A stretch of DNA of 64,000 bases from a virus, in the IMG/VR virus record IMGVR_UViG_3300031707_000005, positions 1 through 64,000 of that record. One strand, written 5' to 3'. Position numbers and translations under genes: made by a program. A model generated the notes under the pieces. It made no database searches. It was not told the DNA's origin and saw only the letters and a program-made list of their open reading frames with translations. This document shows, in pieces, positions 13,227 to 14,775 of the stretch. Numbering within the stretch: position 1 is the first letter of the stretch; the number at the start of each line of letters is the position of its first letter.

Positions 13227-13496
13227 ATGTTCCCGAAATTCCAAAAGAAAGCTCCATCGGAAAAACCGACAGAACAGGCCAGCGAAGAAGACTACGAGTT
13301 ATTCCATACACTGTGTACCGTTTGGTCAGATTGTACGTACGCCCAACAGTATGCAGATGACCAGGACCGTAGTGTCGCACCACTTGCAGCTCGCGAAATA
13401 CGAAAAGCTATTGAAGAATCCATATATGCTGATATGGAAATAGGACTAGATCATATAGAATTACTCAGACGAATTGAATCATCTGAGCCCATCTAG
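13227..13496 (+). CDS. Small acidic hypothetical protein
   Basis: An 89-residue plus-strand frame starting ATG 13227, with a Lys/Glu-rich N-terminus (KFQKKAPSEKPTEQASEEDYE) and a helical C-terminus (REIRKAIEESIYADMEIG). Its 3' end overlaps the convergent release-factor gene by 18 bases. There is no clear ribosome binding site, which lowers confidence. A coding-like amino acid pattern and divergence from gene 12585-13160 support it. No family recognised. Confidence 0.5.
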   Translation: MFPKFQKKAPSEKPTEQASEEDYELFHTLCTVWSDCTYAQQYADDQDRSVAPLAAREIRKAIEESIYADMEIGLDHIELLRRIESSEPI

Positions 13497-14160
13497 ATCA
13501 CCACGCAAAAACGCCTTTACGGTTATTTGACGTCCAGTCCGATGGTCGGTAACCTGATCTCGTTGTACGGCTATAGTGCGAATTTTATCGCCTCGCATAC
13601 CTGAACCTACCTGATCTTTTCGATCTTGAGCTCGACCGTCAAAAGCCGCCGACTTGATTCGCTCCTGAAGTCTGGACCGAAGAATTTGTAAAGCTTCTTC
13701 TTTATTTTGATGTTGCGAACGTTCTGATTCACAACGAACCATAAGACCAGTAGGTAAATATGTCGCCTGAACAGCCGACTCAGTTTTATTCCGGTGTTGT
13801 CCGCCCGCCCCGGAGCCTCTACAAGTCTTAATTTCCACGTCTCGCATATCGAGCCGCATCTGTTGTTCCGTGACTTCCGGAAGTACGGCAACAGTCACCG
13901 TGGACGTATGGATTCGACCCCGCTTTTCATTTGGGGGCTGGCGCTGCCAACGGTGGCCACCTGATTCTCGAGAAAAGAGCTGGGCAACGTCTTTACCGCT
14001 TGCACGGAAGACAAGGATGCCGGGGCGCTCATCTAAAATAGATAGGTCAAAGAAACCTCCGAGCTCCCATCCGGCAATAAACCGCGAATTGTTCTAGAAC
14101 CAGGGATTTGGCGTCGTCGCCACCCTCTGCGCCGCGTATCTCAACTATGACAGTAGACAT
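13479..14160 (-). CDS. prf-like: Peptide-chain release factor, joined by programmed +1 frameshift
   Basis: Translation starts at ATG 14160 behind GGAAGGAG. Frame 0 runs 37 codons (EIRGAEGGDDA, as in RF1 domain 2) to CTT-TGA at 14052-14047. Reading resumes one base later at GAC and runs 189 codons to TGA 13479, giving a 226-residue protein. It has GRIHTSTVTVAVLPE and the catalytic GSGAGGQH motif (GGQ at ~119-121), plus GSGMRGDKIRT and VTDHR, closer to RF1 than RF2. Domain 1 is absent. The codon-reading tripeptide position holds PPN rather than PxT or SPF. Homology is continuous across the junction, which argues against a random frameshift mutation. Confidence 0.85.
14046..14061 (-). promoter_or_regulatory. 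prfB-type programmed +1 frameshift site
   Basis: On the minus strand the order is CGGAGG, then TTT, then CTT TGA C: a Shine-Dalgarno-like hexamer three bases before a CTT codon and a UGA followed by C. This is the arrangement of the bacterial prfB site (AGGGGG, TAT, CTT TGA C). There, slow UGA termination allows the Leu tRNA to slip, so factor scarcity raises production. The same self-regulation is inferred here. Confidence 0.85.
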
Positions 14161-14186
14161 ATTTGACTCCTTCCTAACAATTATAC

Positions 14187-14226
14187 ATCTGGATAGTATT
14201 CATCTATGTTTATCCACTCCGATTTC
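14187..14226 (-). repeat. Direct repeat copy 1, upstream of the release-factor gene
   Basis: About 38 bases (core ATCGGAGTGGATAAACATAG, continuing ATGAATA..ATCCAGAT) are nearly identical to 14737-14775. A TATAAT at 14180-14185 follows and the release-factor start is 20 bases further on. TGGATA and TATCCA within the copy can pair around a 15-base loop. One reading frame gives SEWINIDEYYPDV then a stop. Confidence 0.8.
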
Positions 14227-14697: not shown

Positions 14698-14736
14698 ATT
14701 CTTTTTACATTAATAATACTTTATAATTATGCAATC

Positions 14737-14775
14737 TGGATGATATTCATCTATGTTTATCCACTCCGATTCGGG
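14737..14775 (-). repeat. Direct repeat copy 2, upstream of gene 14233-14697
   Basis: Near-identical to 14187-14226. It differs mainly by a swap of two bases and one other position inside the hairpin arm (TGGAT/ATCCA instead of TGGATA/TATCCA). CATAAT and TATAAA follow it before the GTG at 14697. In one frame the encoded peptide SEWINIDEYHPDC matches copy 1, suggesting remnants of a coding sequence as well as a possible operator. Confidence 0.8.

Follow-up and report, generated by a model that had tools for sequence, protein, structure and literature searches.

Among the systems closest to the gene described here are the bacterial release factors RF1 (prfA) and RF2 (prfB), of which RF2 reads UGA; prfA is not known to be stop-codon gated. 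The mitochondrial RF1 relatives mtRF1 and mtRF1a are full-length and likewise not known to be stop-gated, with an altered recognition loop in mtRF1, and the omnipotent RF2 E167K is an engineered laboratory mutant of RF2. The present analysis concerns a release-factor gene on the minus strand of a 64,000-nucleotide window (the whole stretch of DNA analysed, positions 1 to 64,000 of IMGVR_UViG_3300031707_000005), which belongs to a virus record of 84.6 kb that carries phage major head, portal and terminase genes. Programmed frameshifting of a release factor is known from RF2 at UGA and at a few UAA codons; in a 2025 survey of cellular prfB the gate is nearly always UGA (98.6% TGA), with TAG in 0 of 8,164 genes (PMC12421855). 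PrfH is a class-I factor that lacks domain 1 and has a sporadic distribution (PMC1586002, PMC6514570). The window gene is predicted to encode a short third class-I release factor made up of RF1 domains 2, 3 and 4, of a kind carried by tailed phages and by some bacteria, and most of its relatives carry a stop codon that must be bypassed early in the gene.

The whole gene spans 13479..14160 (minus strand), with an ATG at 14160-14158 and a TGA stop at 13481-13479, and gives a 226-residue product when a +1 shift is applied after codon 37. The zero-frame open reading frame (ORF) consists of 37 codons followed by TGA (14047..14160), beyond which the +1 frame is open to 13481-13479. The junction reads CGG AGG TTT CTT TGA C, in which an internal Shine-Dalgarno-like CGGAGG (14056..14061, minus strand) lies 3 nucleotides before the slippery CTT and the in-frame TGA (14047..14052, minus strand). 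The box, the 3-nucleotide spacing, the CTT|TGA and the C after the stop are all shared with prfB, and the full-length product would require a prfB-type +1 shift at CTT|TGA. A UGA-dependent shift had been proposed in an earlier note on this DNA; the site stands up to inspection and is retained in the contig L002, which is 99% identical over the protein and is probably a near-copy of the same virus.

The earlier note had also described the protein as RF1-like and devoid of domain 1, and both statements are borne out. The best NCBIfam match is prfA, at 223.2 bits against a cut-off of 400 (a second prfA model gives 218 against 423.25), and the prfB and prfH models score 146.9 and 89.2 bits, below their cut-offs of 370 and 166.65. 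Pfam recognises the RF-1 domain and matches PCRF over its second half alone (from profile position 101 of 194), and the alignments with solved RF1 structures start at RF1 residue 88 to 112, which together indicate that domain 1 is absent. A structure model made for the ungated relative L177 (predicted local distance difference test score, pLDDT, 86.9) superposes on ribosome-bound RF1 with a Z of 21.8 and a root-mean-square deviation of 2.5 over 220 aligned residues (L177 residues 1-225 over RF1 104-335), and more poorly on PrfH (Z 14.1, deviation 4.4, 192 aligned). The GGQ peptide-release motif is located at residues 119-121 (13797..13805, minus strand), and peptide-release activity is predicted.

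Relatives were collected by scans of viral contigs (52) and bacterial genome contigs (45) and by two profile scans, from which the best 80 of 421 and the best 80 of 311 relatives were taken; the counts given here describe this sample. Eight loci were set aside before counting (L001, which is the window, and L050-L053 and L219-L221, which are fragmentary or match over a short length only; a CTT|TAG site is present in L050). Alignment of 213 loci with a frameshift-aware script yields 178 distinct proteins, 136 viral and 42 from bacterial contigs. In a quick tree these form one clade (Shimodaira-Hasegawa-like approximate likelihood ratio, SH-aLRT, 99) beside 6 RF1 sequences, with 6 RF2 sequences outside; the family is a sister clade of RF1, mostly phage-borne and in some cases on bacterial chromosomes. 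A start codon is close to the start of the match in 177 of the 178, and fewer than 80 open codons, too few for an in-frame domain 1, lie upstream in 164; the loss of domain 1 in the relatives is judged from this upstream open frame only, and the other 14 have more open codons.

A bypassed stop codon is present within residues 33-53 in 164 of the 178 relatives, 96 with a shift and 68 in frame. The 96 pass in the +1 direction through CTT|stop (TGA 74, TAG 20, TAA 2); the box three bases before CTT is CGGAGG at 45 of these sites, CGGGAG at 12 and CGGGGG at 6, and C directly follows the stop at 73. In the remaining 68 the net frame is unchanged, and a single in-frame stop or a pair of them lies at residue 37 (43 members, all TGA), 48 (10 TGA, 1 TAG), 38 (4), 44 together with 52 (5) and other positions. 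The family differs from prfB in these TAG sites and in the related clades with in-frame stops, in addition to the absence of the RF2 tripeptide SPF from all 178 proteins. Because 170 of the 175 stop or shift events are clustered within residues 33-53, they are taken as gates and not as decay. Two in-frame stops within approximately 13 codons, with the frame kept, are seen in L026, L032, L096, L099, L102, L191 and L255; in the first six of these the pairs are TGA+TGA or TGA+TAG.

In the residue-37 class, the gate appears to be passed by readthrough. GGC precedes the UGA in 36 of the 43 members and makes up 36% of the other glycine codons there (p 1e-10), and in most members a long stem-loop starts seven to nine bases past the UGA. 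This stem-loop after an in-frame GGC-UGA, a likely readthrough element, was located at L115 3097-3168 and at the corresponding sites in the other 42 loci by scanning each sequence for its folding z and by visual inspection of single folds. When 35 of the 43 are tested for pairing (seven with gaps or, by eye, no stem in this register and one near-copy being left out), 72.9% of the cells pair in register compared with 35-45% when slid, none of 500 shuffles reaches 72.9%, and 15 of the 19 hairpin pairs have changed on both sides. Over all 43 members, 7.91 of 12 pairs form in register versus 5.96 (standard deviation 0.20) under synonymous codon shuffles, and the hairpin register ranks first among 13 registers in 29 members. 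Among the 23 less similar sequences only 9 reach 8 of 12 pairs in register, which indicates that the hairpin is common but not universal. The covarying hairpin supports the view that UGA may undergo programmed readthrough in this class. T. maritima RF1 has a tryptophan (KGW) at the place of the residue-37 UGA, and decoding of the UGA by tRNA-Trp would therefore restore this residue. Automatic consensus folding yields nothing for either the residue-37 or the shift class and a marginal structure for residue 48. No downstream RNA structure is seen in the shift class (z near 0 in the 45 sampled of 96), and the residue-48 and two-stop classes have stems in single folds with no common register established. 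Additionally, the residue-37 class has a GCCGC...GGCGG palindrome that encodes AAEGG near the gene start, 58-110 nucleotides ahead of the UGA; its folding signal (z -1.56) is almost equal to that of the downstream hairpin and stronger than that of most gene positions.

Explaining the stops as sequencing errors, decay or an altered genetic code is scarcely credible. Metagenome contigs may hold errors, stop recoding occurs in some phages, and no TGA-ended ORF is seen for L096 and L205 within the short stretch covered; set against this are the confinement of nearly all events to one short stretch, the common CTT|stop of the 96 sites, most of them with a Shine-Dalgarno-like box, the covarying hairpin in most readthrough-clade members, and the presence of the site in the complete chromosomes of Nannocystis poenicansa and Minicystis rosea. 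In the readthrough-clade loci 152 of 426 ORFs end in TGA, and genome-wide TGA recoding as the cause of the in-frame stops was rejected since TGA terminates ORFs in most of the same locus classes. It is also very improbable that the two parts are separate proteins, or that the C-terminal part starts internally, with no bypass. A possible start near the junction in some members (GTG in L207) would suit such an arrangement, but both sides align continuously with RF1 domain 2, the gate falls between the preceding first-base contact (GGxD) and the following recognition tripeptide, and the nucleotides of the shift site are conserved.

According to a study of RF1, base 1 of the stop codon is contacted by Gly120, Glu123 and Thr190 of the E. 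coli protein (116, 119 and 186 in T. thermophilus), base 2 by Thr190 and His197 (193), and base 3 by Thr198 (194) and Gln185 (181), and the mutation Thr190Ala raises the dissociation constant for the ribosome approximately 250-fold (PMC3974865). The window protein has Asp16, Asn77, His84, Thr85 and Gln72 at the places of Glu123, Thr190, His197, Thr198 and Gln185. Asp16 (14113..14115, minus strand) corresponds to a residue that is Asp in 172 of 178 relatives and Glu in 20 of 20 cellular RF1 controls, which were drawn from 188 genomes belonging to the same phylum as one Nannocystis genome. Gln72 (13944..13946, minus strand), at the Gln181 place, is kept in 176 of 178, and His84-Thr85 (13905..13910, minus strand) lies at His193-Thr194, where His is replaced by Gln in 48 of 178. 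The family thus shares with RF1 domains 2-4, Gln181 and GGQ, and differs from it in the missing domain 1, in Asp for Glu119, in Gln for His193 and in HRVQ, which is mostly HRWQ or HRIQ.

The recognition tripeptide of the window protein is PPN (residues 75-77, 13929..13937, minus strand): the plus strand reads atttggggg, of which the reverse complement CCC CCA AAT is read as Pro-Pro-Asn after the +1 shift. The segment HRWQRQPPNEKRGRIHTS aligns ungapped with HRVQRVPVTESGGRIHTS of T. maritima RF1, which places PPN at the PxT position, as the earlier note had it, and leaves no PxT elsewhere in the loop; the alternative placement raised there can be dropped. The observation of PPN is confirmed, and the interpretation given to it is supported in part. 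The threonine of PxT, which all 20 cellular RF1 controls keep together with GGxEA and HTS (PTT 8, PAT 4, PVT 2, PET 2, PLT 2, PST 1, PKT 1), is indeed missing, but PPN is a minor variant of the family consensus PPT (PPT 149, PPN 13, SPT 4, PPS 2, PQN, PET, SPL and PAN 1 each, and a shortened loop in 6 of the 178). The consensus is itself a valid PxT, which leaves the change of Thr to Asn as the one odd feature in the window. Asn at this place is a family trait beyond chance (PPN in 13 of 178, PAN and PQN in 1 each, and none among the 20 RF1), and PPN is a tolerated variant of PPT that does not account for UGA reading. Seven members, L015, L016, L018, L041, L061, L077 and L252, have a shortened loop from which the tripeptide is missing, with GGQ retained.

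The identity of the stop at the shift site is exchanged readily. It has changed at least 19 times on the tree, and the well-supported branches alone force 10 changes for TAG, 65 of the 187 inner branches being weak. TAG at 20 of 96 sites compares with 0 of 8,164 in the cellular prfB survey (Fisher 2e-40), and the TGA:TAG ratio is 74:20 at the shift sites versus 354:194 at ORF ends (p 0.007; 770 ends counted in 86 loci, those initially assigned to the shift class), although such p-values on stop use serve as guides only because the sequences are related. The TAG share of ORF ends shows no difference between TAG-site and TGA-site loci (p 0.28). At UGA sites the tripeptides are PPT 60, PPN 7, SPT 2, PQN 1, PET 1 and shortened 3, at UAG sites PPT 12, PPN 3, SPT 2, SPL 1 and shortened 2, and at UAA sites PPT 2; since the same tripeptides occur with UGA and UAG, the tripeptide does not predict the gating stop. 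The recognition loops of L182 (TAG) and L190 (TGA) differ by a single residue. None of 816 tests finds a residue that tracks the shift-site stop (best p=7e-4, which fails correction), and having PPT or not is unassociated with the stop; the supported branches supply 10 independent pairs, most of them uninformative.

That UGA and UAG replace one another beside unchanged recognition residues implies that the factor reads both, or that it reads neither and the host factors set the gate. The earlier note had posed a choice between a new way of reading UGA and a monitor of host RF2; the question was the right one, but its answer is independent of PPN. Sensing of host RF2 and nothing else fails for the family because UAG as well as UGA is found at the shift sites. 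When the gene for a release factor is gated in this way, slow termination raises the level of the factor, and the gates seen in the majority of the relatives suggest a third termination factor that adjusts itself. The reading that we prefer, at just short of an even chance, is that of a backup release factor that is switched on by slow termination, reads UGA and UAG and is held by negative feedback. When termination is fast, ribosomes would stop at the gate after 37 codons; when it is slow, they would slip +1 at CTT|TGA and the factor would be produced. The factor itself would read the gating stop, which family-wide is both UGA and UAG, and so close a negative feedback loop, for which the UGA/UAG exchange is indirect evidence, and it would top up termination whichever host factor runs short. 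The sequences themselves show the homology, the loss of domain 1, the GGQ, the gate with its conservation and the exchange of UGA and UAG; the release activity, the occurrence of the shift, the reading of UGA and UAG, the feedback and the backup role are inferred. The intact PPT loop and the Gln181 equivalent in nearly all members favour codon reading, and the shortened loops and the His-to-Gln changes favour a relaxed form of it.

Several observations weigh against this proposal. Under the RF1 rules (the Thr of PxT, Gln181), the consensus is expected to recognise UAA and UAG but not UGA, and a factor that reads neither UGA nor UAG could also leave the two free to exchange. The independent-pair tests, with 10 pairs on supported branches, are low in power, and the closest TGA/TAG pair (L004 versus L015 and L016) differs also by loss of the loop. 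The shortened loops of the seven relatives are hard to square with normal codon reading. No gate is found in 13 of the 178 relatives, of which L209 is truncated, and L202 is aligned oddly. UAA is rare at the shift sites (2 of 96 versus 222 of 770 ORF ends), and its near-absence means that host factors clearly shape the gate.

The avoidance of UAA, the stop common to both host factors, also speaks for a rather unlikely alternative, in which an RF1-like factor reads only UAA and UAG, the UGA gates sense a shortage of host RF2 and the UAG gates one of RF1, and there is no self-feedback. The PPT and Gln181 equivalents are RF1-like, as this would have it, but such a factor could neither help nor feed back at UGA, the stop of 74 of the 96 sites, and its own codon UAG is in the minority. 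Somewhat unlikely, too, is a codon-blind rescue factor for stalled or damaged ribosomes that, in the manner of PrfH, is turned on whenever termination fails. The family resembles PrfH in its sporadic distribution and in the lack of domain 1, and the shortened loop of seven members, the Gln at the His193 place, the Asp at the Glu119 place and the uncoupling of stop identity from the residues would all fit. In contrast, the window protein falls under the prfH cut-off, the family is stop-gated, the structure model of its member is closer to RF1 than to PrfH, and the RF1-type loop (PPT in 149) and Gln72 are retained, which a codon-blind factor would not need. Additionally, RtcB is absent from the 84.6 kb record, both flanks of the gene included (the records of the relatives were not searched for it), and is not among the five recurring neighbours compared with Pfam.

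The backup-factor reading can also be widened to a natural class-I factor that reads all three stops through an RF1-like PPT/PPN loop, a phage-carried, self-regulated universal terminator with gates that differ by lineage (frameshift at UGA, UAG or UAA, or hairpin-helped readthrough of UGA); this wider version is doubtful. If the family factor does read all three stops, RF2 E167K would be a functional parallel, from which the family differs in being natural and RF1-like; a ribosome structure with E167K RF2 is among those listed in the comparison with the L177 model. The mitochondrial mtRF1 and mtRF1a are likewise RF1 relatives, but they are organellar and full-length and are not known to be gated, unlike the phage family.

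A literature search that covered subscription journals thinly found no description of this release-factor family. What sets the family apart is a gate, UAG included, on an RF1-like protein, with another clade that appears to use a readthrough hairpin. The family offers a natural experiment on stop-codon reading by release factors and on the balance of termination, and it indicates that termination capacity is something phages manage. At 226 residues and without domain 1, the protein is small enough to be tested easily, and a natural factor whose stop reading is broadened, if confirmed, would be useful for genetic-code work.

The bacterial relatives include seven Nannocystis loci, Minicystis rosea, Pyxidicoccus fallax, Variovorax and Achromobacter. 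Six of the Nannocystis loci (L202, L204, L206, L207, L210 and L213) have genes for ClpS and a Clp ATPase as common neighbours, and the factor gene therefore looks resident there; ordinary RF1 and RF2 are also present in the three of these genomes that were searched. Of 188 genomes from the same phylum as one Nannocystis genome, that genome alone has a third match at E 1e-30 and the rest have at most 2 matches, which indicates that a third factor is rare in that phylum. L253-L255 are relatives in phage records of 595-636 kb, with in-frame stops in two of the three. When neighbouring genes are clustered across distinct loci and clusters of 8 or more loci are listed, the largest comprise 19, 18 and 15 loci, all viral; the five recurring neighbours compared with Pfam are a phosphatase-like protein, an HNH endonuclease, a SLOG-family protein and two with no match.

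Upstream of the window gene, a likely ribosome-binding site, GGAAGGAG, is located at 14167..14174 (minus strand), 6 nucleotides from the ATG. Farther upstream, a stretch of approximately 38 bases (atctggat..attcatctatgtttatccactccgatt) occurs at 14187-14225 and again, with few changes, at 14734-14771; on the minus strand this repeat encodes SEWINIDEY in two ORFs.
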